Assembly (NCBI RefSeq): GCF_019059575.1
Contig: NW_024881613.1
Location: forward strand, 620,001-684,000
DNA length: 64,000 nt
Direction of reading: 5' to 3'
Source: Amphibalanus amphitrite
Taxonomy: Eukaryota; Arthropoda; Thecostraca; Balanomorpha; Balanidae
Part shown: piece after piece, positions 6,571 to 55,075 of the stretch
Position numbering within the stretch: the first letter of the stretch is position 1
Layout of the letters: each line of letters starts with the position of its first letter
Translations under genes and position numbers: made by a program
The notes under the pieces: model-generated
The model's input: only the letters and a program-made list of their open reading frames with translations
Databases searched by the model: none
Told to the model about the DNA's origin: nothing

Positions 6571-6613
6571 ATCCGTCTCCCCAACGGGGCTAGCACATCT
6601 CCGGCTGCTCGTC

Positions 6614-9055: not shown

Positions 9056-9963
9056 TTAACCCTCGCCCGCACATGGGGGGTGGTTGCCACCCCCCCCCCC
9101 CCAGGTAGTCTTTCTGCTCTGCACTCAACATTGTTATAGCTAGAAGGCTGATTTTTCGTATAGCTGCTCCTCTATCCTTTCTTGATGTCCACTGAAAATT
9201 TCAAGTTTCTTTGGTTTTTGGTTTCGGAGATATGACCTTGTTTTTCAGGTCATGTCATGACCCAAATGGCCAATTCTCAACATTTTGCGTTGGCTATGGG
9301 CCTTGTGAGCTTTTGACACCTTGATTTCGGCCTTTTTTGCCAGTCTCACCTCCCACCTATCATGGAACATGTTGTTCGACGATATACAGATATCAAGGTC
9401 AAGGTCAAGGTCAACCTAGGTCATCTAAGATAATTGCGTTTTAGGGAAGCGGAATTTACTTTTTGTGAAGTTTTTGACTACATTTTTGGTAAAAGCTTCT
9501 CAGATCATGATTTCATGTAATATGGACACATAAACGATCGGTGCACACATCAGTATACACACAGACACACACAGACATACAAACACACATAATTGACCTT
9601 GACCTAACTTGACCTGAAATGGCCTTAGCAGCAAAAACCTGGTCGGGTAGTGTGACAAAGAGGTTCTAGCTGGCTTGGCACCAGAAAACGGCATCGTCAT
9701 CGGTATATGATAAGCAGCGCACTTGATATCCAACGGTGACCCAAAACAGCAACATTTTTTAGTTTGAACTGACCTGGAAGGTCAATGACTGACCTGAGAA
9801 GGTAAAACTGGGTATCATTGGATTTGTCTCTTCCCAAAGAATGTTTTTGGTCTTTACCGCTAAGCTCTATCTCTAACAGGAACGAAATGGCGCGGGGGGG
9901 TGGCAGCCCCCCCCCCCATGTGCGTTCTAGGATGGGAAAATAGCATGTGCGGGCGAGGGTTAA
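9056..9963 (+). mobile_element. Family A TTAA MITE, copy A3
   Basis: TTAA lies at 9056-9059 and 9960-9963. The termini, hairpins and interior match A2. Confidence 0.75.
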
Positions 9964-21183: not shown

Positions 21184-21229
21184 GACGAGCAGCCGGAGAT
21201 GTGCACTAGCCACGCTGTGTAGACGGATA

Positions 21230-21330
21230 CTGTCTCTTAGGCCGCAGACAGCGGCTGTATATACGTGTTCAGAGGCTGGGCAGGGAGCTGTTTATGTTCT
21301 CTGGGGCAAACCAGCCGCTAGACAGTTCTG
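21230..21330 (-). promoter_or_regulatory. Conserved promoter of the inverted FReD copy
   Basis: GTATATAC at 21257-21264 is the TATA equivalent. The flanking GCCGCTGTCTGCGGCCTAAG and upstream CTGGTTTGCCCCAGAGAACA blocks match positions 6490-6570 of the intact gene. Homology ends close to the TTAA at 21365. Confidence 0.6.
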
Positions 21331-21364
21331 AAACTCGACTTGATGTTTAGGTGTTAGCGGTAGT

Positions 21365-26228: not shown

Positions 26229-26232
26229 TACC

Positions 26233-29200
26233 TGTAGCAAGGGAAATTAGAAAAAAATAAAAAAAGAAACACGGGGATAAGTACTGCATCTTGCGGTTAT
26301 TTGTAGCAAGGGAAATTAGAAAAGGTAAGAATAAGAATAAAGAGCTGCATCTTTTCGGTTCCTCAAACACCGCGGTCCACTGTCGTTCGGCTGGTTGTAG
26401 CAGAAGAGAGAGAGAGAGCAAATTGCTGCTGGGAGATCCTCGATAGTAAAGCTGGTAGAACAGGGGAGCTTGAGAGTCTTGGAAAAGATCCCGAGAGAGA
26501 TCTAGATATCCTGAGATGGAGATTAGATCCTGAGATGGAGATTTAGATACAGATCCACCCTGCATACAAATACATCTGATGGAAGATGCTTTTTAATTTA
26601 GAGGCTTGATGATTCTGTTCATTGTATAGACCATGATGCACGAGATGCTTCTTCACTGCTCGGATTAGGGATAGAGGGATCCGATCAGCTGAGTTTGCGG
26701 CACAGTTGGGCAGGTGAAGGACAGGGCATTCGAGGTCCCGATGACCACTGCCAAACTTATGGGTGGTAATTACATTGATTAATTGAATGTGATCATTCGT
26801 CCAGTCACCCATTCCTATATCACTGGCCTTCTCATTACGAAAATTGCCCACGTAATTCGTATTAGCGTTGCTATTTTAAGTTGCCCTCGAGATTAAATTA
26901 GTTTGACTGTCCTAACTGAGCTTCGCTAAACTCCCATCGGCCTTATCCTAAGATTCATCCTTTACCATTTTCACTCTCATCCTCTCTCAACATTCGTTCG
27001 TCATATATTCACCCAAATTTATGTAGCGCCCCTCAAATTCCCTCCGATGATGTTAGGTGCCTGACTAAAAGCGATCTCCCCGGCGAGATAAATGTCTCTT
27101 TCCGAAATCCATATGCATGCCCCGCTAACCGGCGACAAAGATACTTATCGCAGGGCCGTCCAGAATAATTGCACAAATATCCACCCTACTAATTTATGGG
27201 ATTCACTACACGTCCGATAGACTTATGGTACACACATACACGATTTATATCCGACTTATCTCTCTACCGGGAGAGATTACCTATGCCCTCTTCCGGTCCG
27301 CGTGTAACATTCCCGTTCACGACCCAGGGACCACAGTTCATATCCTGGAACTATCCTTAAACCATGGGATTTACTCTTCAAGGCCTTACGTGTCCTGGAG
27401 TACATTCTTCCCTCCCCTGAGGCTGTCCAGTACCGATTAGAGTACCTTTACGAAATAAGTATGAGGACTTACCCGGGACACTACGGCTCGCCTTATCCGC
27501 CCTTTGGGTGACTCACCCCTGACCATCGGCCTCTTGCCTTTGGCATAACTTACTCTCCACTGTACTGTGCCAATCTTCCCCGTTCCCCCCTGCCGTAGAA
27601 ACCTCTCACTGCCTTCTCACCCAGTGTTACCTAAGCGGGAAAATTAACAGTGGCCGGTACCACTCGCGGAAAACGTGCATATGCCCTGCGTACGTGACGG
27701 TGTGTCCCTCTTAACATTCCGGTCTGGACGTGGGTTTAGAGAAGTGCATCTGTGTCTCATACAGTCATGCTGGTAAACGTTACGCCATAGGAGACGGGCG
27801 AACAAGCCGTCTGTGCTTCACAATGCCCTGTGCCAATATTGGTGGAATAATTATTGGCGCTAACTCGCAAGAACACGAATAACAGAAACGCATTATTTAT
27901 CCAAACCAAATCGTAATCTCAAGACATAAATTCTGCTGCACACGTGAATCCAATCATCAGTTCTCGTATACAATCCTAGTAGACCTTGAACCGCTCTTGA
28001 TTTAATCAGATGATCTAGAACCAATTAGTACACACCGATCTGCCGTCTGGTTGTGATCCACCGTATCATAGTGAATTACTGAATGCTCAAACGGAAATGA
28101 CTCCTTGAAACTCGTTCGATAGCTTCTGATGGGCTACTAGTTACCTATACAAATTATCTTTATAGAGTGCCAGAATATTGTCATAGGGGTCCCTAGCCTT
28201 TCATAGAAAATCTAATTTAAATCATCCTATTAGCAGTAACCAATGCACATCAAATGAACTGCAGTCCTAGATATCATAAAGCATGTCATATTTAAAATTA
28301 TGCATTAACTGTTTACGTTCTTATCCCGTTGCAACTTTCTACAACTAACCATGTTTCTATACGATGACCTTCACCTACCGCACGCGCCCCAATTACGGCT
28401 AACCCACTGCCCCTGTTGTGGCTGCTCCTCGCGCCCTCTGGCGGCTCAACGCCCGCGTCGGGGACGACGAATACCACGGCCGCCGGCCGGCGCCGCGTCG
28501 ACACCGTCAGTCACCGTCACGCCGTTATGGGCGCGTCAACACTCGCGGTACAGTGCTCGTGCGTGTTGTCTCTTCTGGCCGGGTAGATTCACCGGATGTG
28601 TCAATGAGTGTAAATCTGGTAAAATATCGCTGCAATATCTCCCTGTTCGACATCTCATCAGCTCCATTCCACGTAAGTTTTTTTTAAAAATTAAATTCCT
28701 GTCCCATTTAATCGTTTCCTAACAAAGATGGTCTTTGCTAATATTTATTCTACAGAAGCACAACGATCGGTACCTATATTAGTCGCATATTAGTTCTAAC
28801 CACAAACAATTCTACAGCTACCTATTACTCGACATTTCGCAATTTCAATGACGCAAAGTACAAGGACCATCTAAAGTCGCAAAGTGTCAAAACCGTCGAC
28901 CTCATACCACTACTCTCAACTCTGCACCTATGTAACAGAAGAAATTCCGCCGTAAGCTCAAGCATTCGTATCTGTCGAAAATCATAACTCATAGCCATAT
29001 TCATAGATCGATTGCATGAATCAGTCGTCACCTTAAAACATTACATTCCTTTTCAACCGTATTTACCTGTTCTATAATTGATTTCGACTTCGCAATTAAT
29101 TCCTACAGCAATATTACCAATGATTTCGCAATGCAACTTTTAGTGAGTACAGCACGAATCTAAACCCTTAATTTCACAAACGTTCCAATCTCAAATCGTA

Positions 29201-30985
29201 CCTGACCACCGCCGACAATAAATCGAACGAACCAGTTTGACCAAAGACAAAGACATATTAAATGCTGTCACGTATCCTGTCATCAATCTCAACGTTCGTG
29301 ACAATGAGCTGCTTATTCAAATTTTAGCCTCTCGCTCTCGGCCTAATCGTGAACCCCAACAGACAATAACGGTTTGTTGGCGACTCTGACATGACCTCAC
29401 AATTCAGATCCTAATATGCTACTAGGGTGTCTGGACCAATAAGTTCAAAGTAATTTAAGTTTTCCAATTCCAATTGAGAGTGCATTTTATGGCAACCGAA
29501 AATGTTTGGCAGTCGTCACGGCACGGAAGGGGCAGAGGGGGGGGGGGGTCAAGGATTCGGATTGAGCAGACTTTTCAACAACACTCACATTCTGGAGTTT
29601 CTCTGCGCTTCCGCTTCTCAGTGTGGTCACAAGCGTCGGCGGTTGTCCTCCGGCTCTGGTCGGTCGAACTGAAGAGGCTTCTCGCGGGTGACCCCGGACT
29701 GACGGCGGCTCCCAGATGGCGTCTCCGGCTCCAGCTGTGGACTGTGACTCTCGGCTGCTCGACTGCGACTCTCGGCTGCTCGACTGTGACTGACCCCCTG
29801 GTTGGATGGTGCACACTTTTATAGTTGGGGGGAGGGGTGACTGCCACGCCCTTGCGCCGTCATCTTCCTCTGCCTTCTTCTGGTGGGTGGGTCCGTAAGA
29901 TGGCGCCCTCTGTCCTGTTTAGTCACCTTGTTCCTCTGTGCCTGCAATTTTTAGCCGTCGAATCGTCTTCGTGTTGAGTGCTTTATCATTTAAGTAATCG
30001 CTGGCATAAAACAATCCCTGAGATGTTTGTTATCTTCGAGTTTTAATTTTGATTCTTCAATTTCATTTTATTCAAACTTTTGTTTCCTTCCGTTTCGTCT
30101 GCCGCCAACGCCCCTGTGACGTCACTCTTGCTCCGCCCACCGTACCGGGGCGTGGCCGTAACGCAGCGCCTTCTTCCTCTGCGGAGATCTCTGGAACTAC
30201 AGGTCATTGCTTGCGGCTGTTGTGGAGGTCACCTTGAAGTCGTTCTGCCGGGTCGCTCACCCTGGGTTGCTGTACACCGACAAAGGAGGCTATGTGCTCC
30301 AGCCGGCCTCCATCCTTGACACTGCTCCATGATCTGTTGACATATCTTGCTGATGCAGCGTTATTTGAGGAGGTTCTAATCGCTCATCCTGCGGTAGCTG
30401 TCTCCATAGGCGGGCGTCGTAATGAGAGTTTAACGGTTGCCCATTGCGAAGACCTCTGGAACCTGCGTTTTTGCTTGCCATAGGATCTTCCTGGTTGTGC
30501 CATTCCCACCATGTGACTCAGCGCGGCGCAGCTGTTGTGGTACCTGACAGAGTACGTGACAAGTGACAGAGTACCTTAACGTGCTCGCTCGCCGCCGCCG
30601 CCGGCCGCGGTCCTGACGTAGCTTGTTGACTCAGCTGTGCCTCGACGGTTCGTACTGATGTAGGCGGCATCGTCTTCTCGCAGTTGTGTCTACTGCGGGC
30701 TATTCCCACGGACAGTGCTCGTTGCGGGAGTTGGAGAAAAGTGATGTGTGGGGATGGCGGGCTTGGTGACTGGGGGGTGTGTGAATAATGAGAGGGGAGG
30801 GGAGCGCAGCAGCAGCGCTCCGCTCAGCTGTGCGTCACCCGGTGGCAGCGATGCGTGTGTGAATGGAGGGCTAGGCCTGTGACCGGACTGCGAGGGGGGG
30901 GGGACTGCCGGACCGAGCCGTGCCGAAAAGATACTACGTTAAATGTTCAAGATGTAGCGTGCTACTCAAGATGTAGCGTGCTACA
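26233..30985 (-). mobile_element. Solo LTR (4.75 kb) of the giant-LTR retrotransposon
   Basis: On the minus strand it begins TGTAGCACGCTACATC at 30985 and ends CCCTTGCTACA at 26233. These are the same TGTAGC...GCTACA ends as the LTRs at 35029 and 41251. It is flanked by a 4-bp duplication TACC (26229-26232 and 30986-30989). A TATA box (CTTTTATA on plus, 29816-29823) lies at the position equivalent to the complete element. It differs from those LTRs by many substitutions and small indels and has short tandem duplications at both ends, so it is an older insertion reduced to a solo LTR by recombination. Confidence 0.85.
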
Positions 30986-30989
30986 TACC

Positions 30990-32979: not shown

Positions 32980-33842
32980 CAGTTTCAGAAACGCGTTAGC
33001 GGCAGTTGCTTGATGTTTGGCCCCACATTTGAGCTCAATCGGGCCCAAGAATCGGGTCAGCAGTTCCGGACATATAAGAAAGTGTATGCACGTGCACACG
33101 TGCGGCAGCACCCACAGCAGCACCCTCTGTTTCAGAAATGCAAAAGTGGCTAATGATATGTCATCTAGCCACATCACCAAATTTGAGCTCAATCGGGCCA
33201 GTGGTTACTGAGATATAAGGAAGGGGTGCGCACGTGCGCACGTGCACCAGCCAGCACCCCCTGTTTCAGAAATGCGCTAGTGGCTAATTGATGTCATCTG
33301 TCCACATACTAAATTTGAGCTCAATTGGGCCAGTGGTTACTGAGATATAAAGAAGGGGTGTGCACGTGCGCACGTGCACCAGCACCCCCTGTTTCAGAAA
33401 TGCAATAGTGGCTAATGTATGTCATCTGGCCACATACCAAATTTGAGCTCAATCGGGCCAGTGGTTACTGAGATATAAAGAAGGGGTGCGCACGTGCGCA
33501 CGTGCACCAGCAATCCCTATTTGACAAATGTGATAGTGTCGGATGTATTGTATCTGGTCACATACCAAATTTGAGCTCAATCAGTGACGCGGTTCTGGAG
33601 ATATCATTAGACCAACTTTGTAAACACCCCTCACGCGCCACGCGCAGACCCTCCTCCGTGCCAGCCGATATCTCCCGGAGACATTGCATTCAATTTTTAA
33701 TGCACGGGGTCATCAAACAGTGAAGACCGGACCTATGTGGGTGTTACTGATCTCGAGATATAAAATCTGAAAGTTAGGGCCACTATGGTCATGGCCGAAA
33801 TTTCTGCGCTCAGTCCAGGTGTACAGAGGTCTATGTATATAT
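32980..33842 (-). repeat. Inverted copy of the 126-bp satellite block
   Basis: Reverse complement of 22800-23540. Units with CACGTGCGCACGTG palindromes lie at about 33085, 33230, 33360 and 33490, followed by the same flank (GAAGACCGGACC..., CTCAGTCCAGGTGTACAGAG) up to a short TA run. No mariner has been inserted here. Confidence 0.75.
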
Positions 33843-33861
33843 ATGTTACGGGTCATATGCT

Positions 33862-34022
33862 AACTTGGGCAGTATGCAAACTACCCGGGCAGTATGCAAA
33901 CTACCCAACAGCCCGGGCAGTATGCATACCGCCCGGGTAGTATGCATACTACCCGACCCCTTAGGCAGTATGCATACCGCCCGGGCAGTTTGCATACTGC
34001 CCGGGTAGTATGCATACTACCC
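33862..34022. repeat. Array of 20-bp palindromes centred on TATGCATA
   Basis: Seven tandem or near-tandem units follow the pattern GGGYAGTWTGCAWACYRCCC, for example perfect palindromes GGGTAGTATGCATACTACCC. The related array at 46653-46780 is in reverse orientation with the same order of variant units. A looser unit (CGGGCAATATGC) occurs near 34053. The function is not known. Confidence 0.8.
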
Positions 34023-35010: not shown

Positions 35011-35028
35011 ACAACTTGTAACGTCTTA

Positions 35029-38000
35029 TGTAGCACGCTACATCTTGACCATCTAACGTAGTATCTTTTCGGCACGGTCGGCCCGGTGACGCGCAGCTGA
35101 GCAGAGCGCTGCCGCACGCTTCCCTCCCTTGTCATTATTCCCTTCCTCCTCCCACCCGTCCCCAGGTCCACCCTCCCCAATCATTTCTCACTGTCCGCAC
35201 AGAATGGGCCGCCATTAAACTCCAATTAAGACAAGCACCTCTGAAGACAGTCACATCAGGATGAGTCATTGGTAGTCATTACAAAGCAGCTGAAGCTACA
35301 AGCAAACGTCGGCACACTGTGAGACCACGCGCAGGCTTAAGGCACGTAGCACATTGGGTCTCACGTAGCCATGGTAGCACAACAGTGCGTCTCACTGCAA
35401 CGGAATCTGCTAAACTTAGCAAACAGCCTCCGAAACAGACGTAGTTCAGGACGTCTCCACTGCGGACAGAAAGCGCTGTTGTCCGAAACAAACGTAGTTC
35501 AGGACGTCCCCACCGCGGACAGAAGGCGCTGTTCTACAGACCCTCCCAACCAAGATGACGTCAGTGGGTGGAGCAAGAGTGACGTCACAAGGGGCGTTGC
35601 CGGCAGACGAAACGGAAGGAAACAAAAGTTTGAATAAAGTGAAATTGAAGAATCAAAATTAAAACTCGAAAATCACCAACCTTTCGGGGATTGGTTTATG
35701 CCAGCGACTACTAAGATGATAAAGCACTCAACACGAAGACGATTCGACGGCCAAAAATTGCAGACACAGAGGAGCAAGGTGACTAAACAGGACAGAGGGC
35801 GCCATCTTACGGGCCCACCCACAAGAGGAAGGCAGAGGAAGAGGACGGCGCAAGGGCGTGGTAGTCACCCCCTCCCCCCAAGCTATAAAAGGGTGCACCA
35901 CCCAACCAGAGAGGTAGATACAGTCGAGCAGCCGAGAGTCACAGTCTGCAGCCGGAGCCGGAGACGCCATCTGGGAGCCGCCGTCAGTCCGGGGTCACCC
36001 GCGAGAAGTCTCTTCAGTTCGAGCGCAGAGGAACTCCAGAATGTGAGTGCTGTTGAAAAGTCTGCTCTATCCCTGATCCTTGCCCCCCCCCCTCTGCCCA
36101 GCTTGCCGTGCCCGTGACGACCGCCAAACATTTTTGGTTGCCATAAAATGCACTCTCAATTGGAATTGGAAAATTTAAATTACTTTGAACTTATTGGTCC
36201 AGACACCCTAGTAGCACATTAGGATCTGAATTTCGAAGTCATGTCAGAGCCGCCAGTAAATACGTTATTGTCAGTTGGAGTGCGGGATACATCGCGATTA
36301 GGTCGAGAACGGGATGCTAAAATTTGAATAAGCAGCTCAGTGTCACGAACGCTGAAATCGATGACCGGATGCGTAACAGCGTTGAAACGTCTTTGTCTTT
36401 GGTCAAACTGGTTCGTTTGATTTATTATCGGCGGTGGCCAGGCGCAATTTGAGGTTGGAACGTTTGTGAAATTAAGGGTTTAGATTCGTGCTGTACTCAC
36501 TAAAAGTTGCATTGCGAAATCATTGGTAATATGACTGTAGGAATTAATTGCGAAGTCGAAATCAATTGTAGAACAGGTAAATACGGTTGAAAAGGAATGT
36601 ACTATTTTAAGGTGGCGACTGATTCATGCAATCGATCTATGAATATGGCTATGAGTTATGATTTTCGACAGATACGAATGCTTGAGCTTACGGCGGAATT
36701 TCTTCTGTTACTTAGGTGCAGAGTTGAGAGTAGTGGTTTGAGGTCGACGGTCTGACGCTTTGCGACTTTAGATGGTCCTTGTACTGCGTCATTGAAATTG
36801 CGAAATGTCGAGTAATAGGTAGATGTAGAATGGTTTGTGGTTAGAACTAATATGCGACTTATATGATACCGATCGTTGTGCTTTTGTAGAATAAATACTA
36901 GAAAAGACCATCTTTGTTGGGGAACGATTAAATGGGACAGGAATTTAATTTAAAAAAAAAACTTACGTGGAATGGAGCTGATGAGATGTCGAACAGGGAG
37001 ATATTGCAGCGATATTTTACCAGATTCACACTCACTGACACATTCGTTGAATCTACCCGGCCCGGAGAGACCGCACACACCAGTACTGCACCGCAAGTGA
37101 TGACGCGCCCATAACGGCGCGGCCTTGACAACTGTCGACTGTCGACGCGGCGCCGGCCGGCGCCGCGGTAATCATCGTTCGCGACGCGGGACCGTGCGCC
37201 GCTAGATGGCACACGAGGGCAGCGTCGGGAGTGGAGCAGCGGCCACAGTAGGGCAGTGGGCTAACCGTAATTGGGCGCGTGCGGTAGGTGAAGGTCATCG
37301 TAGGTATAGGAACATGGTTAGTTGTGGAAGTTGCCACGGGATAAGAACGTAAACAGTTACTGCATAATTATAAATACGACATGCTATGTAATATCTAGAC
37401 TGCAGTTCGTTTAATGTGCATTGTTTACTGTTGATAGGATGATTTAAATTAGATTTCCTCTGAAAAGCTAGCGATCCGTATCCGTATGACAATATTCTGG
37501 CATTCTATAAAGATAAATTGTATAGGTAACTAGTAGTCCATCAGAAACTGCCACCAGAAACTATCGAGCGAGTTTCAAGGACTCATTTCCGTTTGAGCAC
37601 TCAGTAATTTACTATGATACGGCGGTCACAACCAGACGACAGATCCGTGCGTACTAATTGGTTCTAGATCATCTGATTAAATCAAGAGCGGTTCAAGGTC
37701 TGCTAGGGTTGTATACGAGAACTGATGATTAGGTTCACGCGTACAGCAGCAATTAGGACTTGAGATTACGATTTGGTTTGGATAAATAATGCGTTTTTGT
37801 TCTTCGCGTTCTTGCGAGTTAGCGCCAATGATTACTCCACCAATATTGGCACAGGGCATTGTGAGGCACAGACGGCTTGTTTGCCCGTCTCCTATGGCGT
37901 AACGTTTACCAGCATGACTGTATGAGACACAGATGCACTTCTCTAAACCCACGTCCAGACCGGAATAATAAGAGGGACACACCGTCACGTACGCAGGGCA

Positions 38001-39448
38001 TATGCACGTTTTCCGCCAGTGGTACCGGCCACTGTTAATTTCCCGCTTAGGTAATACTGGGTAACGAGGCAGTGAGAGGTTTCTATGGCAGAGGAAAGGA
38101 GAAGACTGGTACAGTGCAGTCGGAGAGTAAGTTGGAGCTATGCCAAAGGCAAGAAGCCGAAGGTCAGGGGTGAGTCACCCAAAGGGCGGATAAGGCATGC
38201 TGTAGTGTCCCGAATAAGTCCTCATACTTATTTTGTAAGGGTACCTTAATCGGTACTGGACAGCCTCAGGGGAGGTAACGATGTACTCCAGGACACGTAA
38301 GGCCTTGAAAGTAAATCCCAGGGTTTAAGGAGAGTTCCTGAGGAGAGTTCCAGGATATGAACGGTGGTCCCTGGGTCGTGAACGGAGGTGTTACACGCGG
38401 ACCGGAAGAGGGCATAGGTAATCTCTCCCGGATAGAGAGATAAGTCGGATGTAAATCGCGTATGTGTGTACCATAAGTCTATCGGACGTGTAGTGAATCC
38501 CATAAAATGGCAGGGTGGATATTTGTGCATAATTATTCTGGACGGCCCTGCGATAAGTTTGTCGCCGGTTAGCGGAGCATGCAAATGGATTTCGGAAAGA
38601 GACATTTATCTCGCCGGGGAGATCGTCGTCAGCCAGACACCTAACACTATCGGAGGGAATTTCGGGGGCTGCTAAATCGATTGGGGTGAGTGAATGGAGG
38701 GCAAATGCTTTGTGTGGATGAGCGTAGGAATGATGAAGGATAAATCTTAGGATAAGGCCGATAGGAGTTAAGCAGAACTCAGGTTGGGCAGTCCAGCTAA
38801 TGATTCTCGAGGGTAACTAAACTAGCAACGCTAATACGAACTAAGTGGGCAGTTTTCGTAATGGGGAGGCCAGTGATATAGGAATGGGTGACTGGACGAA
38901 TGATCACATTCAATTAATCAATGTAATTACCACCCATAAGTTTGGCAGTGGTCATCGGGACTTCGAATGCCCTGTCCTTCACCTGCCTAACTGTGCCGCA
39001 ACCCCAGCTGATCGGATTCCTCTATCCCTAATCCGAGCAGTGAAGAAGCATCTCGTGCATCATGGTCTATACAATGAACAGAATCATCAAGCCTCTAAAT
39101 CAAAAAGCATCTTCCATCAGATGTATTTGTATGCAGGGTAGATCTCTAACTGGATGCCCACATCTCTATCAGGTGGATCTCATCACTATCAAGATCCCTT
39201 TCTAAATCTATCTCATCTAGATCAGGATCTCATCACTATCTGGATCCCTCCCTATAGCTATCTCAGGATCTCTTCAACGACTCTCAGGTTCCCCTGTATC
39301 ACCAGCTCTACTATCGAGTTCATTACAGCAGCAAATAGTTATCTGTCTTCTACAATCAGCCGCAATGAACCAGTAGGGACCGCTGTTTGATGAACCGCAA
39401 GATGCAGTTCATCCTTATTTTCTTTCTTTTCTTCATTCCCTTGCTACA
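35029..39448 (+). repeat. 5' LTR (4420 bp)
   Basis: It starts with a palindromic TGTAGCACGCTACA and ends CCCTTGCTACA. A U3 of about 0.9 kb carries two CRE-like TGACGTCA sites (35556-35563 and 35580-35587) and a TATA box. R plus U5 would then be about 3.5 kb, which is exceptionally long. ORFs inside are short; one plus-strand frame near 38845-39141 is discussed under findings. Confidence 0.85.
35884..35926 (+). promoter_or_regulatory. LTR core promoter
   Basis: TATAAAAG lies at 35884-35891, with a CAGTCG initiator-like site at 35921-35926, about 30-37 bp downstream. The same TATA is at 42106-42113 in the 3' LTR and 29816-29823 (minus) in the solo LTR. It defines the likely U3/R border. Confidence 0.6.
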
Positions 39449-39450
39449 AA

Positions 39451-39470
39451 TGGCGCCCATAACGTGGGGC
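39451..39470 (+). other. Primer binding site
   Basis: TGGCGCCCATAACGTGGGGC begins two bases after the 5' LTR. TGGCGCC is a classic start of a sequence complementary to a tRNA 3' end. Its position confirms the element's orientation. Confidence 0.7.
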
Positions 39471-41250
39471 TTTGATAATTCTCAAATTGTGAAGCTGGTA
39501 GACTGGCACAAGCCGCCGAACCCGAAGTTGATGAATTGAAAGTCAACCGTATGGAGAAGAGGAAGAAGTTGAAGAATAGAGCAGGTGTTCGAAAATACTG
39601 GCAGCAGTGGAAATGAGCGTGCTGCAGGGGTCGACGTGAAGAAAGAGGATGAGCTAAAGAAAGCTGTGTGAAGATGATGAAGCTTATGATGGTGGCTGAT
39701 GACAGGGAAATTGAAGAATTGAGCAGGTGTTCGAAATACTGACAGTAGTGGAAATGAACGTGCTGCAGGGGTCGACGTGAAGGAAGAGGATGAGCTAAAG
39801 AAAGCTGTGTGAAGATGATGAAGCTTATGATGGTGGCTGATGAGAGGAAGCGGTCTTACGAATACTGAAAAGGACATAGAAGAAGTTGTTGAAGATAAGA
39901 TAAGGAAATGAAGCTGTCTCATGAAACAAAGAATCAGACCAATACAGAAGTCAGGCCGAAAATGAAACTTGACAATTGTTCGCAGCAGCTTATCAATTCT
40001 TCTACGTTCTGCTGTATAACAAGTACAAGTCAAGGTCAGCTGCTGTATTGCAAAGGGAGCTCGAACTTTCTAGAGTATTGATGATAAGAGGACAGCAATA
40101 TCAAAAGCAGCAGAGGAAGAAGAACAGGCGGAATGCTCGTGTTGTACTGAATCAAAATCAAGCACGGCCGTCTTCACAACACAGCCAAGGCGATGATCAA
40201 GTTGGTGAACGAGGAGAGGGTGCCAGGGTGCTGCAAGACCAACTGCCAAACGATCCATTCAGATGGGCTGCTGCATAGATCACCCACCTGGGCTGCTGCA
40301 AAAGCTGTCACCTGGTCCGCCGAAAGGTCGCTACCTGAGCTGCCACGGAAGATGCACTAACCACCCGTGCTACCACGAAGGTCTCTACCCGGGCTGCCGC
40401 GGAGGTCACCCAATCGGACTGCCACAGAGGATACATTGTCCTCCCGTGCTGCCTCGGGGGTCACCCACCTGAGCTGCCGCGGAAGTCGCATACCTGAGCT
40501 GCCACGGAGGTCACCTGTGCTGCCATGAAGGATGCATTGCCTCGCGGGCTGCCTCGGGGGTCACTCACCTGAGCTGCCGCGGGAGTCGTCTACCTGAGCT
40601 ACCACAGAGGCTGTCACCGGGTCTGCCACGAAGTTCACCTACCTGGGCTGCCATGGAGGTCGCCCACCTGAGCTGCCATGGAGCCTGCCACCCGGGCGGC
40701 CACGGAAGTCGCGGCAGGGCCGGCCATGGAGGTCGCCTATCCGGACTGCCACGGAGGTCACCCACCTGGGCTGCCACGTAGGCTGCCCATACGGGCCGCC
40801 GTGCAAGCTGCCCACCCGGGCTGCCATGGAGCCCGCCGTCCGGGCTGCTGTGGAATCTTCCCACCCTGGCTGCCGTGGAGGCAGCCCCACCCAGGCTGCC
40901 ATGGCAGGCTGCCACCCGGGCTGCCGTGAAGGCTGTCACCCGAACTGCTGTGGAGGCCGCCCACCTGGGCTGCTATAGAGGTCTTCACCCTCCTGAGAAG
41001 CCGCTTACCGGACGGCGACCGACGACATCGGGCTAACCAAAGTGGTTGGTGCCCGTGACCTGGATCTGGTGAACGACAAACTGAGGTGGGGACGAGGAAC
41101 AACAGGTGCGTGTGTGTACTGTACTAGGTATACGATGTCATTTTGTAGGCGTTGCGGAACTTAACATGATTGTGTAGATTTAGATGAGTAAGGGAGGTGA
41201 CTTTTTTGTAGGAGTTGCGAGGACGCAACTAGGGTTGTTTGGACTGAAGA
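39471..41250 (+). other. Internal region of the LTR element, without gag-pol
   Basis: It begins with an A/G-rich stretch containing a direct duplication of about 130 bp (about 39561-39690 and 39711-39840). An open frame (39976-40278) has no ATG before position 40080. It encodes a short basic stretch (QQRKKNRRNAR) with no recognisable domain; a nucleocapsid remnant is possible but unsupported. A minisatellite occupies 40276-40990. No convincing polypurine tract lies directly before 41251. Confidence 0.55.
40276..40990 (+). repeat. GC-rich minisatellite in the LTR element interior
   Basis: About 20 degenerate copies of a unit like GCTGCCACGGAGGTCACCCACCTGG (period roughly 24-40 bp). Several frames stay open across it, giving low-complexity peptides that are shadows, not genes. 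Confidence 0.7.
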
Positions 41251-44200
41251 TGTAGCACGCTACATCTTGACCATCTAACGTAGTATCTTTTCGGCACGGT
41301 CGGCCCGGTGACGCGCAGCTGAGCAGAGCGCTGCCGCACGCTTCCCTCCCTTGTCATTATTCCCTTCCTCCTCCCACCCGTCCCCAGGTCCACCCTCCCC
41401 AATCATTTCTCACTGTCCGCACAGAATGGGCCGCCATTAAACTCCAATTAAGACAAGCACCTCTGAAGACAGTCACATCAGGATGAGTCATTGGTAGTCA
41501 TTACAAAGCAGCTGAAGCTACAAGCAAACGTCGGCACACTGTGAGACCACGCGCAGGCTTAAGGCACGTAGCACATTGGGTCTCACGTAGCCATGGTAGC
41601 ACAACAGTGCGTCTCACTGCAACGGAATCTGCTAAACTTAGCAAACAGCCTCCGAAACAGACGTAGTTCAGGACGTCTCCACTGCGGACAGAAAGCGCTG
41701 TTGTCCGAAACAAACGTAGTTCAGGACGTCCCCACCGCGGACAGAAGGCGCTGTTCTACAGACCCTCCCAACCAAGATGACGTCAGTGGGTGGAGCAAGA
41801 GTGACGTCACAAGGGGCGTTGCCGGCAGACGAAACGGAAGGAAACAAAAGTTTGAATAAAGTGAAATTGAAGAATCAAAATTAAAACTCGAAAATCACCA
41901 ACCTTTCGGGGATTGGTTTATGCCAGCGACTACTAAGATGATAAAGCACTCAACACGAAGACGATTCGACGGCCAAAAATTGCAGACACAGAGGAGCAAG
42001 GTGACTAAACAGGACAGAGGGCGCCATCTTACGGGCCCACCCACAAGAGGAAGGCAGAGGAAGAGGACGGCGCAAGGGCGTGGTAGTCACCCCCTCCCCC
42101 CAAGCTATAAAAGGGTGCACCACCCAACCAGAGAGGTAGATACAGTCGAGCAGCCGAGAGTCACAGTCTGCAGCCGGAGCCGGAGACGCCATCTGGGAGC
42201 CGCCGTCAGTCCGGGGTCACCCGCGAGAAGTCTCTTCAGTTCGAGCGCAGAGGAACTCCAGAATGTGAGTGCTGTTGAAAAGTCTGCTCTATCCCTGATC
42301 CTTGCCCCCCCCCCCCTCTGCCCAGCTTGCCGTGCCCGTGACGACCGCCAAACATTTTTGGTTGCCATAAAATGCACTCTCAATTGGAATTGGAAAATTT
42401 AAATTACTTTGAACTTATTGGTCCAGACACCCTAGTAGCACATTAGGATCTGAATTTCGAAGTCATGTCAGAGCCGCCAGTAAATACGTTATTGTCAGTT
42501 GGAGTGCGGGATACATCGCGATTAGGTCGAGAACGGGATGCTAAAATTTGAATAAGCAGCTCAGTGTCACGAACGCTGAAATCGATGACCGGATGCGTAA
42601 CAGCGTTGAAACGTCTTTGTCTTTGGTCAAACTGGTTCGTTTGATTTATTATCGGCGGTGGCCAGGCGCAATTTGAGGTTGGAACGTTTGTGAAATTAAG
42701 GGTTTAGATTCGTGCTGTACTCACTAAAAGTTGCATTGCGAAATCATTGGTAATATGACTGTAGGAATTAATTGCGAAGTCGAAATCAATTGTAGAACAG
42801 GTAAATACGGTTGAAAAGGAATGTACTATTTTAAGGTGGCGACTGATTCATGCAATCGATCTATGAATATGGCTATGAGTTATGATTTTCGACAGATACG
42901 AATGCTTGAGCTTACGGCGGAATTTCTTCTGTTACTTAGGTGCAGAGTTGAGAGTAGTGGTTTGAGGTCGACGGTCTGACGCTTTGCGACTTTAGATGGT
43001 CCTTGTACTTTGCGTCATTGAAATTGCGAAATGTCGAGTAATAGGTAGATGTAGAATGGTTTGTGGTTAGAACTAATATGCGACTAATATGATACCGATC
43101 GTTGTGCTTTTGTAGAATAAATACTAGAAAAGACCATCTTTGTTGGGGAACGATTAAATGGGACAGGAATTTAATTTTAAAAAAAACTTACGTGGAATGG
43201 AGCTGATGAGATGTCGAACAGGGAGATATTGCAGCGATATTTTACCAGATTCACACTCACTGACACATTCGTTGAATCTACCCGGCCCGGAGAGACCGCA
43301 CACACCAGTACTGCACCGCGAGTGATGACGCGCCCATCGCGGCGCGGCCTTGACAACTGTCGACTGTCGACGCGGCGCCGGCCGGCGCCGCGGTAATCAT
43401 CGTTCGCGACGCGGGACCGTGCGCCGCTAGATGGCACACGAGGGCAGCGTCGGGAGTGGAGCAGCGGCCACAGTAGGGCAGTGGGCTAACCGTAATTGGG
43501 CGCGTGCGGTAGGTGAAGGTCATCGTAGGTATAGGAACATGGTTAGTTGTGGAAGTTGCCACGGGATAAGAACGTAAACAGTTACTGCATAATTATAAAT
43601 ACGACATGCTATGTAATATCTAGACTGCAGTTCGTTTTAATGTGCATTGTTTACTGTTGATAGCATGATTTAAATTAGATTTCCTCTGAAAAGCTAGCGA
43701 TCCGTATCCGTATGACAATATTCTGGCATTCTATAAAGATAAATTGTATAGGTAACTAGTAGTCCATCAGAAACTGCCACCAGAAACTATCGAGCGAGTT
43801 TCAAGGACTCATTTCCGTTTGAGCACTCAGTAATTTACTATGATACGGCGGTCACAACCAGACGACAGATCCGTGCGTACTAATTGGTTCTAGATCATCT
43901 GATTAAATCAAGAGCGGTTCAAGGTCTGCTAGGGTTGTATACGAGAACTGATGATTAGGTTCACGCGTACAGCAGCAATTAGGACTTGAGATTACGATTT
44001 GGTTTGGATAAATAATGCGTTTTTGTTCTTCGCGTTCTTGCGAGTTAGCGCCAATGATTACTCCACCAATATTGGCACAGGGCATTGTGAGGCACAGACG
44101 GCTTGTTTGCCCGTCTCCTATGGCGTAACGTTTACCAGCATGACTGTATGAGACACAGATGCACTTCTCTAAACCCACGTCCAGACCGGAATAATAAGAG

Positions 44201-45962
44201 GGACACACCGTCACGTACGCAGGGCATATGCACGTTTTCCGCCAGTGGTACCGGCCACTGTTAATTTCCCGCTTAGGTAATACTGGGTAACGAGGCAGTG
44301 AGAGGTTTCTATGGCAGAGGAAAGGAGAAGACTGGTACAGTGCAGTCGGAGAGTAAGTTGGAGCTATGCCAAAGGCAAGAAGCCGAAGGTCAGGGGTGAG
44401 TCACCCAAAGGGCGGATAAGGCATGCTGTAGTGTCCCGAATAAGTCCTCATACTTATTTTGTAAGGGTACCTTAATCGGTACTGGACAGCCTCAGGGGAG
44501 GTAACGATGTACTCCAGGACACGTAAGGCCTTGAAAGTAAATCCCAGGGTTTAAGGAGAGTTCCTGAGGAGAGTTCCAGGATATGAACGGTGGTCCCTGG
44601 GTCGTGAACGGAGGTGTTACACGCGGACCGGAAGAGGGCATAGGTAATCTCTCCCGGATAGAGAGATAAGTCGGATGTAAATCGCGTATGTGTGTACCAT
44701 AAGTCTATCGGACGTGTAGTGAATCCCATAAAATGGCAGGGTGGATATTTGTGCATAATTATTCTGGACGGCCCTGCGATAAGTTTGTCGCCGGTTAGCG
44801 GAGCATGCAAATGGATTTCGGAAAGAGACATTTATCTCGCCGGGGAGATCGTCGTCAGCCAGACACCTAACACTATCGGAGGGAATTTCGGGGGCTGCTA
44901 AATCGATTGGGGTGAGTGAATGGAGGGCAAATGCTTTGTGTGGATGAGCGTAGGAATGATGAAGGATAAATCTTAGGATAAGGCCGATAGGAGTTAAGCA
45001 GAACTCAGGTTGGGCAGTCCAGCTAATGATTCTCGAGGGTAACTAAACTAGCAACGCTAATACGAACTAAGTGGGCAGTTTTCGTAATGGGGAGGCCAGT
45101 GATATAGGAATGGGTGACTGGACGAATGATCACATTCAATTAATCAATGTAATTACCACCCATAAGTTTGGCAGTGGTCATCGGGACTTCGAATGCCCTG
45201 TCCTTCACCTGCCTAACTGTGCCGCAACCCCAGCTGATCGGATTCCTCTATCCCTAATCCGAGCAGTGAAGAAGCATCTCGTGCATCATGGTCTATACAA
45301 TGAACAGAATCATCAAGCCTCTAAATCAAAAAGCATCTTCCATCAGATGTATTCAGGGGCGGATCCAGAAAATCTCCAAGGGAGGGGCCATTAGAAACCA
45401 GGAGGCCCCCATATGTTGGAGGCCCCATCTTCCCACTTGTTGGGCCCCCCCCCCAAAAAAAAACTGCGTCTATTGAGCTTATCTAGCTGTTCAGGCAACA
45501 TCTCAACATGAATAGCCACTTTATTTTCAGGAGGCCCCCTTTTCAGCTTTTTAACTTTTTATTTTATTTTTGAAAAAAATCGGCCAAGGGGGGGGCCATG
45601 GCCCCCATGGCCCCCCCCTTGTATCCGCGCCTGGATGTATTTGTATGCAGGGTAGATCTCTATCTGGATGCCCACATCTCTATCAGGTGGATCTCATCAC
45701 TATCAAGATCCCTTTCTAAATCTATCTCATCTAGATCAGGATCTCATCACTATCTGGATCCCTCCCTATAGCTATCTCAGGATCTCTTCAACGACTCTCA
45801 GGTTCCCCTGTATCACCAGCTCTACTATCGAGTTCATTACAGCAGCAAATAGTTATCTGTCTTCTACAATCAGCCGCAATGAACCAGTAGGGACCGCTGT
45901 TTGATGAACCGCAAGATGCAGTTCATCCTTATTTTCTTTCTTTTCTTCATTCCCTTGCTACA
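41251..45962 (+). repeat. 3' LTR (4712 bp) with a hAT insertion
   Basis: Nearly identical to the 5' LTR. Differences noted by eye include a C-run length near 42306, two extra T bases near 43006, and single changes near 43085, 43318, 43338 and 43660. The extra length is explained by the 280-bp hAT MITE and its 8-bp duplication. Confidence 0.85.
45354..45633. mobile_element. 280-bp hAT MITE inside the 3' LTR
   Basis: Ends CAGGGGCGGATCCAG and, inverted, CAGGCGCGGATACAAG are flanked by the 8-bp duplication GATGTATT (45346-45353 and 45634-45641). The empty site is preserved in the 5' LTR at about 39119-39126. There is no coding capacity. Confidence 0.85.
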
Positions 45963-46244
45963 CTTACATGTAAATGGTTTCAGGTAACATTAGCTATTGA
46001 AACTATGATAACCCCCTCTACAGGTCCAAGTGCCAAACCAAAGCCAGCGAGTGATGGCACTATAGATATGTCGTCATTTCAGATGAAAATGACTTGTTGA
46101 CCGCTGGCAATGAAATTCAATGAAATTCTGGGGAAATATTTTAAGTCTTTATATTCTAAACATTATTTCACTCTTCGATCGATAAATCACGTTTGACGGC
46201 GAAAAAGACTTCGCGATTGAACTACGCTACTTTTTTTAAATTTA

Positions 46245-46652: not shown

Positions 46653-46780
46653 CGGGCAGTATGCAAACTGCCCAAGTTTTTGGGCGGTATGCATACTGCC
46701 CAAGGGGTCGGGTAGTATGCATACTACCCGGGCGGTATGCATACTGCCCGGGCTGTTGGGTAGTTTGCATACTACCCAAG
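46653..46780. repeat. Second array of TATGCATA-centred palindromes
   Basis: Reverse-oriented homologue of 33862-34022, with five units plus the flank GTTAGCATATGACCCGTAAC shared with 33844-33863. Confidence 0.8.
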
Positions 46781-46796
46781 TTAGCATATGACCCGT

Positions 46797-46867
<71 letters not shown>
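46797..46867. repeat. TA dinucleotide microsatellite
   Basis: About 34 uninterrupted AT/TA repeats directly abut the palindrome array. Confidence 0.95.
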
Positions 46868-49919: not shown

Positions 49920-50129
49920 GGCTACGTTTCCATGGCACAAGCTAAGCCGATTTTGAAAAATGGATTTGCTCCATCATAGCATTTAGGCATAATTTAAAAA
50001 TGTAAAGATAGGATTAGGTGCTACCTAACACCATATATACGCTCATTTTTTGCATAAGGTAAATAGTTTCCGAGAAAAACGCACGTGAAATTTCGCTTAA
50101 TCGATTTAGACGTGTCATGGAAGCGTAGT
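49920..50129. mobile_element. 210-bp MITE
   Basis: Inverted ends of about 35 bp begin GGCTACGTTTCCATGGCAC and CACTACGCTTCCATGACAC. The element is flanked by ATT on both sides (49917-49919 and 50130-50132). The 3-bp duplication could indicate a PIF/Harbinger-like element, but the family is not recognised. Confidence 0.6.
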
Positions 50130-50573
50130 GATTAATTGATCTGTGCCTGAATGGACGTATCAGCCAGCTTCGCCATGGTGCAGAAAGGCTGTAAAGACAC
50201 TCGTATCTCCGGAACAAATTGTGGAATCGGAAAAACAAATTCAAACGGCATTTGAGAGCGCTCATCGAGATGAACAAAATATGATATCGTTGACCTCGAC
50301 ATTTTTACCTGTGATGTCTCAAGGAGGTTCAAACAAGGTAACATTTGTCCAATTTACAGTGACGAGAATCGGTCATAAAAATGTATATTTCTAAAATATA
50401 TGATGTATTCATAGAGTTGACCAGTGGATAGTCATCTGAATGGATGATGTCCTGTGACGTCACAAGAGAGGCCAGCCTCGCCCTCGACCAATCAGAAGAC
50501 ACTTGCATGAATCGTATGGAACGGCATGCTGAATTGTGAATATTCGAGTCTTTATGAAACCACGTCATATATA
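50130..50573. other. Intergenic, nothing recognised
   Basis: An inexact match of about 40 bp (TCAGCCAGCTTCGCCATGGT against the region near 50995) hints at diverged repeats. No gene is supported. Confidence 0.35.
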
Positions 50574-50960
50574 CAGGGTGTTCCAAAAAAGTGAGCCCCC
50601 CAACTAAGATCACCTGTATCTCTGCAACCGTGCATCCTACACTCTACAGCTTTGGGAAGCCGCTCATTAGAAAGAGCAATCAAATTCCATCCAGATATGC
50701 CGTAATTCCCTTACCTACATATCTTGCACAACACGACCAGCATTTTGAAAAGCACAATTCAATACCATTTTTTTTGGTAAAACATTTAGCTGCATTAGAT
50801 ATGGTCAAAATTTCTTCACATCTGACTGCATATTTTCGTTCACGTGCGTTCTTTTTTCTTCGCCGTGTTTCACCGCCGATCTCGCAACACATTTTGTTTT
50901 GGTCGTTCTCGATGTATGTAATAGGTACGTATACATACATTCAGAGTCACACTTTTTTAG
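50574..50960 (+). mobile_element. Mariner-type terminus, truncated
   Basis: TA-CAGGGTGTTCCAAAAAAGTGAG is a typical IS630/Tc1/mariner left end. No matching right end is found, and the following 160-codon frame has no transposase motif. Confidence 0.4.
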
Positions 50961-50974
50961 TAGGTAGCTTATCC

Positions 50975-52298
50975 CGCGTCCCAGTGGCGGTCTCAGCCAA
51001 CTTCGCCATAGTGGGGAGGCATATGTTACCACCCACCTCTAACTCAAAAACTAAGAGGGCTAGAAAGACGCGGTAAAAAGTAGTCGATAGGTCTCAATGC
51101 GTACGTTTGAAAGTATTTCAGTCATTTTTCATCTTAGAGTAATATTGGGGTCACCAGAGGTCATCAAATGTCAAAATTTGCCAAATGTCACTATTCTTAG
51201 GTGTTGTTTCTATCCGCTGGGTATAATATTGGGATGAGTAATATTGTGTATAATACTGGGATGAGTAATATTGGGGTCACCAGAGGTCATCAAATGTCAA
51301 AATTTGCCAAATGTCACTATTCTTAGGTGTTGTTTCTATCCGCTCACAAATGTCACTAAATTTTTCAGAAAACATGCCGTTATCTCAGGAACTATGATAG
51401 CTATAAAACACATGGAAAAGCAATCGATAGCTTTTGAACTCTTCTTTTGATAAGGTCATCATCAAAATTGACGTCAGGTCAACGGTTAAGCCTCCATAGG
51501 TCTTGTTTGTTTATTAGGGTTTACGGGCGCGTCGACTGCGGTGGTCATTTTGCGCCAGCCTCCATAGGTCAAACATTGTGAAAAAACTGTTTTTGGATAA
51601 AACTGTTTCACAACTAACTTTTAATCCAGCAAAGAAAAAGAATCGGCAATGGCACTATCCTGTTTCTCTCCTTCAGTCGCTTCGAAAAATATATTTTTTA
51701 CCTGGAAAAGTCAAGATCAAACTTTGACCTCAGGTCAAGGTTACGTGGTGACCCCAATAGACCATGTTGCATATCAGTCGATGTGTCTCGACAAGACAAA
51801 CACAATGAAGCAATCCCCAGAGTTCTATCTCTTTCCGATCGAGAGTTATTGGCGAAAAGCTGTTTGTAGCCTCAGCCCTCAAATGACCTCTGATGACCTT
51901 TCTTGAGGCTATCAGCAACTAAGACACCTTGGTCGTCGGTGGTCCAAATCATTGTGATTGTGAAATATTTGGACTCTTCCTATGCGTACACACGGATCTA
52001 GAGGCATTTTCATTTTTCTCTATTGACTTATAATGGAAAGGTCACGCCACTGGCCTGACCTTAGCTCAAAGATATAACAAATCCGAGATATCAAAATTAT
52101 AGGTGCCCGTAACATCATGCAATCCACCAAGTTTAAAACCTCTCCGACAAACACTGCAGGCTGGACATGATTGCAAACTTTTTTAGGCTTGGTCAGTTAA
52201 CTTGACCTGGTGACCTGACCTGACATGACCTGGGGTCAAAAATTTCACACATTGTCCGAAATTGATGGACCAAAAGCTACCCCACCGACACCGACTGG
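50975..52298 (+). mobile_element. Diverged family D-like MITE sequence
   Basis: It contains a CCCGCG-type start, AGGTCA sites, and the GACCATGTTGCATATCAGTCGAT block that matches D1 near 1255-1275. An 81-bp direct duplication lies at 51138-51218 and 51264-51344 (period 126 bp). Its right end is ill-defined and runs into D5. Confidence 0.5.
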
Positions 52299-53639
52299 CC
52301 GATCGCCTTGAAACTTTCAGCGATTGATAAGAGCAACAGTATGCACAAAATAAACCCTCGCCCATGTAGGGGGGGGGTTGGTGCAACCCCCCCCCCCTGA
52401 GGCTTTTCGGAAATAGTGCAAAAACGGCGGCGCGCAGCGCCGCCAAATTTTGGGTACCTTATGGGGCAAACCTTGCGCATCTTTTGATAAAAAAATTTGA
52501 CCGGGTCATGTCAGGTCACGGAGTTATGACGTCACAAAGGGAACAGCCTCCGGCCGGATTTTCACAAACTGAGTGCCAACGCCCGAGGTTTCCTGCCGGT
52601 GGTACGGACATCGGTTGATGGATCGTGATGAAACTTCCCATGCATGTTGGGGCAAGTATTGGCTATCATATGGTATAAGAAACTTGACCGGGTCAGGTCA
52701 GGTCACGGAGATATGACGTCACAAGAGGAACAGCGTCCGGTACTATTTTTGAAAAGCGCCCGAACCACTATTTTGCTAATTCTTGTCACCTCAATGGGAA
52801 TATGCAGCAATATTAGCTTCTATAGGGAGCAAATGGACCTCCCAAATCCAAAAAATACAATCAGATTTCAAAAATTTAAATTTTGATTTTTCAAATTTCT
52901 GCCGCCGACTGTGACCTTGCCGACTTCCGGCGCTCCCAACGCGCCATTTTTAGAGCTAGGGAAACGAAATACATACCAAACGATAGAGAATTGATCAAGG
53001 AACACGATAGTGAAGATTTCAAGTCGATATCTCCCACCGTTTTGCCGCAATCGCCGCGGAAAGTTGAAAAACAGTCTATTTTTCCGAAAATTTGACCTTT
53101 GACCGGTCAAAAGTAGGTCAAATGTTGACCTAGGACCAAAAAATATACCACCAATCGCGAGATCTCGGCGAGAGCAATCCGTTGGTCTTTTCCGCTAATC
53201 TCTACGACGCTTCGTTTTCAAACGCCAAGGGGGGGGGTCGCACCAACCCCCCCCCTGCATGGGCGAAGGTGGCAGATCGCCGTTTACGGGCGAGGGTAAA
53301 TATATCGGAATTTTGATATCGGTGACCTAAGCTCAGGTTAATTTTGCGACCTCTCCATATGTACGGATAGGTACCTATTAGTTCCCGAGTTAGCCGTTGG
53401 CAGTTTCCAAAATTGTTGAAATGGACTACATTTGACCCTTGATAACCTCTGGCGACCTGACCTTTGACCTGACCCAAAAAATGACTGAATAATTCCGTCA
53501 TTATTTTTGACGCTCTTTCGAATGCCGCTTACCGCGTGTCGCTACGTGGCTCAGGAGCCGAGTTAGACGGGGGGGGGGGGGTGTTCAGACACTCTCCCCT
53601 CGGCCCGGCCCGGAAGTCGCGGAGCACCTTCCGGGTTAA
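52299..53639 (-). mobile_element. Family D MITE fragment D5, interrupted by C2
   Basis: 52299-52350 and 53301-53639 together align with D2 from about 11610 to 12572: GCGATTGATAAGAGCAACA, then TATATCGGAATTTTGATATC, through GCTACGTGGCTCAGGAGCCG to TTAA at 53636-53639. The gap is exactly filled by element C2. Confidence 0.7.
52355..53296. mobile_element. Family C MITE, copy C2, with TAAA target duplication
   Basis: A 942-bp inverted relative of C1 with CCCTCGCCC/GGGCGAGGG termini and GGTTGGTGCAACC-type hairpins. It is flanked by TAAA on both sides (52351-52354 and 53297-53300), not TTAA. Confidence 0.8.
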
Positions 53640-54400
53640 CTTGTTTAGCGGCGGTAAGAGCCCAAAGTGTGAACATGCCGAAATATTGATAATATCTACT
53701 TTGATATGAAAAGTGACTCCTAAATGGCGTCATAGGAACTGTGGGGGCCCCAAAAAGTAGCCAAAAGTAAAAGTCAAATATCTCAAAAACCGGTAAATAT
53801 TTTTTGGTGAAATATGGTGTATATGGTACATCACTTTTATGCCAATTCATTGACTTTTTTGAAGGTGGGAGGGTCCCTCTTCTCGCCAATTTTTGCACTA
53901 TGTTGCCGCCTATGCTTTCGCTTTTTCAAATATTTTCCTTTTCTATATTTTGTCTTTTCGATAGTCTGCGTTTGATATTTTGTCTTTTCGATATAATGCC
54001 TTCGATACTTTGTCTTTTCGATATTCTGCTTTCGATATTTTCTCCTTTCGATATCATGCATTCGATATTTTACCTTTTGATATTCTGCTTTCGATAGTTG
54101 GCTTTCCGTTCCTTTCTATATCCATTCTGTTTTTTTTTTTATAGGTACTTTGTCTGTTCGATAATTAGCGTGACGTAATGCTTGACTTGACATGAACTAG
54201 CCTGTATAAAAATTGTACACACTGTCCTCCCGTAACCCATGCCGTTTAGGCGTTTACCGCTTGCCGCTAGCTTCTTCGTTTTCCAGATTTTAGGGGCATG
54301 TACCCATCCCCCATCCCCCGCAGGTGCGACATTGGGCCGGACTCCCAAAGACGTGCAAGTTGAAGATCACATGCAGTGTATCAATCGACCTGTATTGTTC
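53640..54400. repeat. Intergenic with degenerate TTCGATATTTTGTC repeat
   Basis: About 53935-54110 contains eight or so degenerate copies of TTTCGATATTTTGTCTT (period about 30 bp). The rest shows nothing recognisable. Confidence 0.55.
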
Positions 54401-55075
54401 ACCTGAAAACATTTCAGATGCTTCATTGCTCTATCAAGGCTCTAACGTGAGTTATTGTCGAAGACCCTTAGAAGACCTTTTATGACCCAACATTACTTTT
54501 TGAGTGACCTGTGGTCATCTACTGCAGCCTGTCTATATGGGTAGAGATGTCATGTTTCTGATAATGTCTTGTTGATTTGACGTGTTTCTTCAAATTTTGT
54601 GTAGGCATTTGCACTTTTCCCAAAAGCTTTATCATGGTGAGGCCCCAAATCTGATCTAACCTCAGGTCACACATATAAAAATCCAATATGATAAATGATG
54701 TTGCTGATGCTTTCATGCAATACGCCACTGTTTCAAACTTCTTAGTGATGGGCTGTAGAAATCTCAGAAATAGTTATTTTTTAAGAGGTGCTTATATACA
54801 TAACTTGACCTGTGACATGGCCTCAAGTGACCTGTGGTTAAAAAAATTAAACACACTATGCAAATTTGATGTTTGATAAGCTTTACTAATTTCCGCGGTA
54901 AAGCGATTCGCAGTTTTCTTTACACCCGCAAACAAAGTCGAGTTTCAGCAGCCCCCCTCTTAACTCGCCAGAGTAAAGAGGGGGGCTGCAAACAAAGTCG
55001 AGTTTCAGCAGCCCCCTCTTAAACTCGCCAGAGTGAAGGTTAAGATCAACTTGGCGCCTGGGGAGAAAACGGTAA
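54401..55075. other. Intergenic with TGACCT-type sites and a tandem duplication
   Basis: Scattered TGACCT half-sites are present. A block GCAAACAAAGTCGAGTTTCAG...CTCGCCAGAGT is duplicated in tandem at about 54927-54974 and 54987-55034. No gene is seen. Confidence 0.45.

Follow-up and report, generated by a model that had tools for sequence, protein, structure and literature searches.

A genuine long terminal repeat (LTR) retrotransposon of 10,934 bp lies at positions 35029–45962 of a 64,000-nucleotide stretch of the genome of the balanomorph Amphibalanus amphitrite (NCBI RefSeq assembly GCF_019059575.1, contig NW_024881613.1, positions 620,001–684,000 of the forward strand), which was analyzed as a whole and is referred to below as the window. 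Its LTRs exceed 4 kb and enclose a short interior that looks non-coding from its sequence; in its build, the element is like the large retrotransposon derivatives (LARDs). The explanation that we favor, with a probability of about 0.62, is that the element lacked coding capacity before it transposed and was mobilized in trans, being a young non-autonomous retrotransposon with giant LTRs. Most simply, it can be viewed as a non-autonomous relative of the long-LTR, tRNA-Lys-primed Ty3/gypsy elements.

The architecture outlined in an original prediction, which was made from the letters of the DNA alone, was recovered by alignment of the LTRs. As predicted, LTRs of more than 4 kb flank a 1.8-kb interior (4,420, 1,802 and 4,712 bp in order), the boundaries of the LTRs are readable as TGTAGC...GCTACA ends, the target-site duplication CTTA is present at both flanks and more than 80% of the element consists of LTR sequence, namely 9,132 of 10,934 bp (83.5%). 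The coordinates of these and of all further features are collected in Table 1. The junction between the interior and the 3' LTR (41247–41268) is palindromic, reading AAGATGTAGC-AC-GCTACATCTT.

The repeats are genuine LTRs because a second, independent insertion in the window has the same ends together with its own 4-bp duplication. This second insertion is regarded as a solo LTR because no interior is present, and its alignment with the 5' LTR, over 4,148 bases, shows 3,789 identical and 359 differing positions. Long direct repeats could, taken alone, be two segmental duplications and no LTR element at all; this is extremely improbable in view of the TG...CA ends, the primer site, the CTTA duplication and the solo copy, an independent insertion flanked by GGTA, and the two insertions with different 4-bp duplications argue strongly against it. 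The original prediction had proposed to look for consistent ends and target duplications at other loci as a check on this very alternative, and the second locus in the window shows both, which bears out the LTR reading. At the start of the solo LTR, the LTR-start motif is duplicated in tandem over 19 bp. An alternative end at 26302–26328, where a second end-like motif is located, was rejected: it would take 69 bp off the solo LTR, and it is followed by AATA, which does not match GGTA on the other flank. Position 26233 is preferred because an end at 26302 gives no matching duplication.

Table 1. Features of the LTR retrotransposon and of the related solo LTR, in window coordinates
Feature	Positions	Strand	Remarks
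Whole element	35029..45962	+	10,934 bp
5' LTR	35029..39448	+	4,420 bp; TGTAGC...GCTACA ends; from LTR alignment
Interior	39449..41250	+	1,802 bp; without recognizable coding; from LTR alignment, ORF and domain scans and stop counts
3' LTR	41251..45962	+	4,712 bp including the 288-bp insertion; TGTAGC...GCTACA ends; from LTR alignment
Target-site duplication CTTA, left	35025..35028	.	Adjoins 5' LTR directly
Target-site duplication CTTA, right	45963..45966	.	Adjoins 3' LTR directly
Later MITE-like insertion	45346..45633	+	288 bp counted with one of the two 8-bp duplications (GATGTATT); absent from 5' LTR
Indel-rich stretch, likely U3	35087..35560	+	83.3% identity and 44 indel events versus solo LTR; two 53-bp tandem copies at 35429–35533
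Most conserved of nine LTR segments compared	38821..39148	+	95.7% identity and no indels versus solo LTR; substitutions not protein-like
TATA-like hexamer	35884..35889	+	Prediction only; matching place in solo LTR too (29823)
AATAAA, candidate poly(A) signal	36890..36895	+	Prediction only; matching place in solo LTR too (28749)
Primer-site-like stretch TGGCGCCCATAACGTGGGGC	39451..39470	+	Starts two bases past 5' LTR; first nine bases are the start of the gypsy tRNA-Lys site
141-bp tandem duplication in interior	39565..39847	+	From repeat search
Diverged tandem array in interior, 25-bp unit	40265..40984	+	From repeat search
Purine-rich run (11/12), doubtful polypurine tract	41186..41197	+	Best run; ends 53 bases upstream of 3' LTR
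Solo LTR of the same family	26233..30985	-	4,753 bp; same six terminal bases at both ends; GGTA duplication at 26229–26232 and 30986–30989; without interior

In an alignment of 4,419 bases, the two LTRs of the element differ by seven substitutions; there are also four indels of 1–2 nt and one 288-bp block that is found in the 3' LTR only. This block is a later insertion resembling a miniature inverted-repeat transposable element (MITE), as judged from its 8-bp duplication (GATGTATT) and its related inverted ends, the first 18 bases of which match at 12 of 18 positions; to judge by the features of such elements, it is presumably of the hAT type. Both LTRs were therefore about 4.42 kb in length before this event. 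The two LTRs of one insertion are copied from one template, and from their near-identity here we infer that the insertion is recent and that this copy is probably young.

The interior was characterized by its domains, stops and repeats. Sixty-two stop-to-stop open reading frames (ORFs) of at least 50 amino acids overlapping 35020–41250 were scanned against Pfam, with matches listed to an E value of 0.1, and no gag-pol domain was found in any of these 62 pieces, in keeping with the absence of gag-pol that had been predicted. The weak matches obtained, one piece each to Bag6_BAGS (0.0055), SH3_retrovirus (0.024), Duc1_FFAT_like (0.024) and RDR6_2nd (0.092), were rejected as unconvincing over 62 pieces. 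The three forward frames of the interior contain 23, 24 and 33 stops, at or above the level of shuffled sequences (mean 26.5, standard deviation 4.6), and the reverse frames contain 12, 23 and 15, two of them being poorer in stops than the shuffles; the longest ORF, of 195 amino acids on the reverse strand, falls inside the shuffled range (95th percentile 209). Since the LTRs differ at only 7 of 4,419 bases whereas the forward frames are so rich in stops, it is unlikely that these stops were built up by point mutation after the insertion. A comparison of the interior with the window at an E value of 0.001 gave no match except the interior itself.

Signals for replication and transcription were also considered. 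The primer-binding site that had been described as readable is indeed present directly inside the 5' LTR, with nine initial bases of the gypsy type followed by two extra bases. If these two bases are allowed, the rest of the stretch presumably matches tRNA-Lys as well. The corresponding site of gypsy is TGGCGCCCAAC, the primer of which is tRNA-Lys (PMC6541305). The predicted TATA box stood in part: the hexamer at 35884 is retained in the solo LTR, but TATAWA is no commoner in the 5' LTR than expected from base composition (3 versus 2.9), and the same holds for AATAAA (2 versus 1.8). Because neither kind of hexamer is clearly enriched over the expectation from base composition, the layout with a U3 (unique 3') region of ∼0.9 kb and R-U5 (repeat and unique 5') regions of ∼3.5 kb is only a prediction. 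The claim of an R-U5 part of about 3.5 kb depends on a chance-level TATA match.

According to the explanation favored here, the element would rely on its own LTR for transcription and on a cellular tRNA, most likely tRNA-Lys, as the primer of reverse transcription just inside the 5' LTR, and a coding relative elsewhere in the genome would provide gag, reverse transcriptase and integrase. This copy probably had no coding capacity when it transposed and used proteins provided in trans. Alternatively, an ordinary coding long-LTR element may have been inserted and then have lost gag-pol through a single internal deletion, its leader and 3' untranslated part being what remains. The near-identical LTRs agree with a recent insertion in this case too, and the shortened Osvaldo copy cqgypsy_2.2 of Culex demonstrates that such derivatives arise within coding families: as tabulated, it has a length of 5,491 bp, LTRs of 2,054 and 2,057 bp and coding content given as 'frag', which leaves an interior of ∼1.4 kb, and a member of the same family measures 12,138 bp (PMC3286476). 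Furthermore, tandem repeats such as those in the interior agree with the untranslated parts of coding elements, which that report gives as their usual place (PMC3286476). However, the deletion must postdate a recent insertion and no piece of gag or pol was recognized, although neither objection is strong. We consider such a deletion to be on the unlikely side, and movement of an already non-coding element in trans is preferred.

Several observations weigh against the preferred explanation. Only one full-length copy is visible in the window, the interior of which could be peculiar to that copy, and the element has no pol sequence by which its lineage could be placed. The primer-site-like stretch has the two extra bases after its first nine, and no clear polypurine tract adjoins the 3' LTR, the last 12 bases of the interior being TTGGACTGAAGA. 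In addition, six of the seven substitutions between the LTRs fall inside 579 bp (36860–37438 / 43086–43664), with a P value of 0.001, or of 0.007 if an adjacent pair is counted once, both calculations having been chosen post hoc; this cluster may reflect assembly mixing or gene conversion, in which case the youth of the copy could be overstated. Finally, tRNA-Lys also primes gypsy of Drosophila (PMC6541305).

The most likely helper would be an Osvaldo-type Ty3/gypsy element with long LTRs, a lineage that we infer from shared features. In the Culex tables of PMC3286476, a tRNA-Lys primer site is given for 11 of 11 Osvaldo families and 4-bp duplications for 17 of 20 listed copies; their LTRs measure 1.0–2.1 kb except in two fragments, and long LTRs are called characteristic of the lineage, while the other four lineages in the table have LTRs shorter than 0.5 kb and other primers. 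The present element resembles Culex Osvaldo in its tRNA-Lys-type primer site, in the mostly 4-bp duplications and in its kilobase LTRs, which are features in common and not proof of descent, and differs from it in that its LTRs reach 4.4 kb and that the full copies of Osvaldo are coding (PMC3286476). It is dominated by LTRs in the same manner as cqgypsy_2.2, which is half the size of the present element (PMC3286476). A helper outside Osvaldo, whether from another Ty3/gypsy lineage, BEL or an endogenous retrovirus, would overlap with the preferred explanation, as the element would again be a non-autonomous LTR element. Drosophila gypsy uses a tRNA-Lys-type site too and no pol is present to decide the matter; however, it is only in its Osvaldo rows that the Culex table, which covers one species, combines long LTRs with a tRNA-Lys site and 4-bp duplications (PMC3286476), and we regard a helper of another kind as rather unlikely.

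The closest counterparts in build are the LARDs of plants, for which LTRs of ∼4.4 kb and interiors of ∼3.5 kb have been reported (as cited in PMC3532108). Those of barley and related grasses, such as Sukkula, share with the present element LTRs of ∼4.4 kb, an interior without coding and an assumed helper, but their interiors are ∼3.5 kb as compared with 1.8 kb here, and they are plant elements (PMC3532108). The statement in the original prediction that giant-LTR non-autonomous elements are best known from plants holds as far as the match to plant LARDs goes, but needs to be qualified for animals. Annotations of LARDs exist for the honey bee, where the repeat table gives 3.10, a figure read here as a percentage of the genome (PMC4028053), and for bumblebees, together with terminal-repeat retrotransposons in miniature (TRIMs; PMC4414376); a family named LARD is listed for Drosophila (PMC9005704), and the Culex report mentions one LARD-like element (PMC3286476), in addition to the kilobase LTRs of Culex Osvaldo and its shortened, LTR-dominated copy. 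The cqUNK elements of Culex quinquefasciatus are likewise non-coding animal LTR elements that contain tandem repeats and for which no master copy is known; unlike the present element, they are tabulated with LTRs of 125–931 bp, with no tRNA-Lys site listed and with duplications of mostly 5 bp (PMC3286476, Table 2). Ogre and Burro are also very long elements, the LTRs of plant Ogre measuring 1.9–6.5 kb, but they have large coding interiors (PMC6431247). An assignment to Troyka was rejected, because this group requires CG...CG termini, 3-bp duplications and LTRs of 100–400 bp, whereas TG...CA, 4 bp and 4.4 kb are found here (PMC7215508). The proportions of the element are thus unusual, yet near kinds have already been described, and the length of its LTRs is its most unusual trait. 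Woot of Tribolium reportedly has LTRs of several kilobases.

A stronger version of the LARD comparison would be an animal LARD family proper, in which the 1.8-kb non-coding interior is common to many copies, the conserved non-coding blocks of a very long R-U5 part (for example, 38821–39148) are signals for packaging or replication, and selection for the capture of helper proteins has enlarged the LTR to more than 4 kb; we consider this to be quite improbable. If copies with the same interior exist, the element would be a well delimited equivalent, among animals, of the plant LARDs, one copy of it being very young, and an animal would become available for testing how helpers are captured and why giant LTRs are needed. 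Taken as a single copy, the element mainly contributes a 4.4-kb example to the long-LTR elements of the tRNA-Lys type, and it suggests that some elements labeled as LARDs could be shortened copies of the Osvaldo type.

The LTR itself was compared with the solo LTR in nine segments, which were picked after the alignment had been viewed, and 58 stop-to-stop ORFs of at least 40 amino acids in the 5' LTR were compared with the solo LTR by codon position. Indels are present in 50 of the 58. An LTR-encoded protein was considered for three ORFs on the reverse strand, the differences of which lean towards third positions as would favor coding (36222–36479, 15 of 30; 38249–38605, 9 of 16; 37298–37504, 11 of 21), and was rejected since indels with lengths not divisible by three occur in every one of them. 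In an indel-free ORF of 98 amino acids (38845–39138), the changed codons comprise two synonymous and seven non-synonymous cases. There is consequently no convincing sign in these comparisons that the LTR encodes a conserved protein; the conserved blocks of the two copies compared may carry non-coding signals. The suggestion that R-U5 holds signals for packaging or replication may stand to this extent, but the LTR is not unusually structured as RNA in windows of 150 nt: z scores below -2 were obtained for 1 of 57 windows in the 5' LTR, 2 of 62 in the solo LTR and 0 of 23 in the interior, compared with 5 of 59 in a control region (50001–54500). Well conserved RNA structure has been reported for LARDs and TRIMs (PMC2996953), in contrast to the present folding, which covered local windows of single sequences. 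No known RNA family was matched in the window at gathering thresholds, and no tRNA gene was found in it. The 20-mer at the LTR start had no exact match in viral_contigs and genome_contigs, nor did the 23-mer of the LTR end and primer site in viral_contigs, these being viral and prokaryotic collections with little bearing on animals.

Further repeats were observed around both insertions. Inverted copies of ∼170 bp (33832–34003 and 46653–46812), built of the palindromic motif GGGCAGTATGCATACTACCC, flank the element on both sides, and it may have been inserted into another element ending in GGGCAGTATGCATACTACCC repeats. The solo LTR is bracketed by an inverted pair (22789–23470 / 33157–33844, 96% identical), which is overlapped by 128-bp tandem repeats on opposite strands (23050–23552 and 33092–33604). 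A repeat of ∼0.9 kb is present in three copies (2627–3536, 4135–5041 and 9055–9963) that are 93–96% identical, with no Pfam match in the ORFs scanned. With regard to other coding elements, the window contains 148 ORFs of at least 90 amino acids, of which 82 lying outside the element were scanned and yielded no Pfam family at an E value of 0.01. Among ten window ORFs that were scanned separately, Pfam matches were confined to two genes with fibrinogen domains. These fibrinogen-related genes, which are indicative of an animal genome, form an inverted pair (6436–7936 on the forward and 19856–21364 on the reverse strand) that is 92% identical; their ORFs (6563–7951 and 19841–21205) end in a Fibrinogen_C domain and differ at the N-terminal ends of the open frames, and the fibrinogen-C assignment of the ORF at 6563–7951 is also backed by PDB matches.

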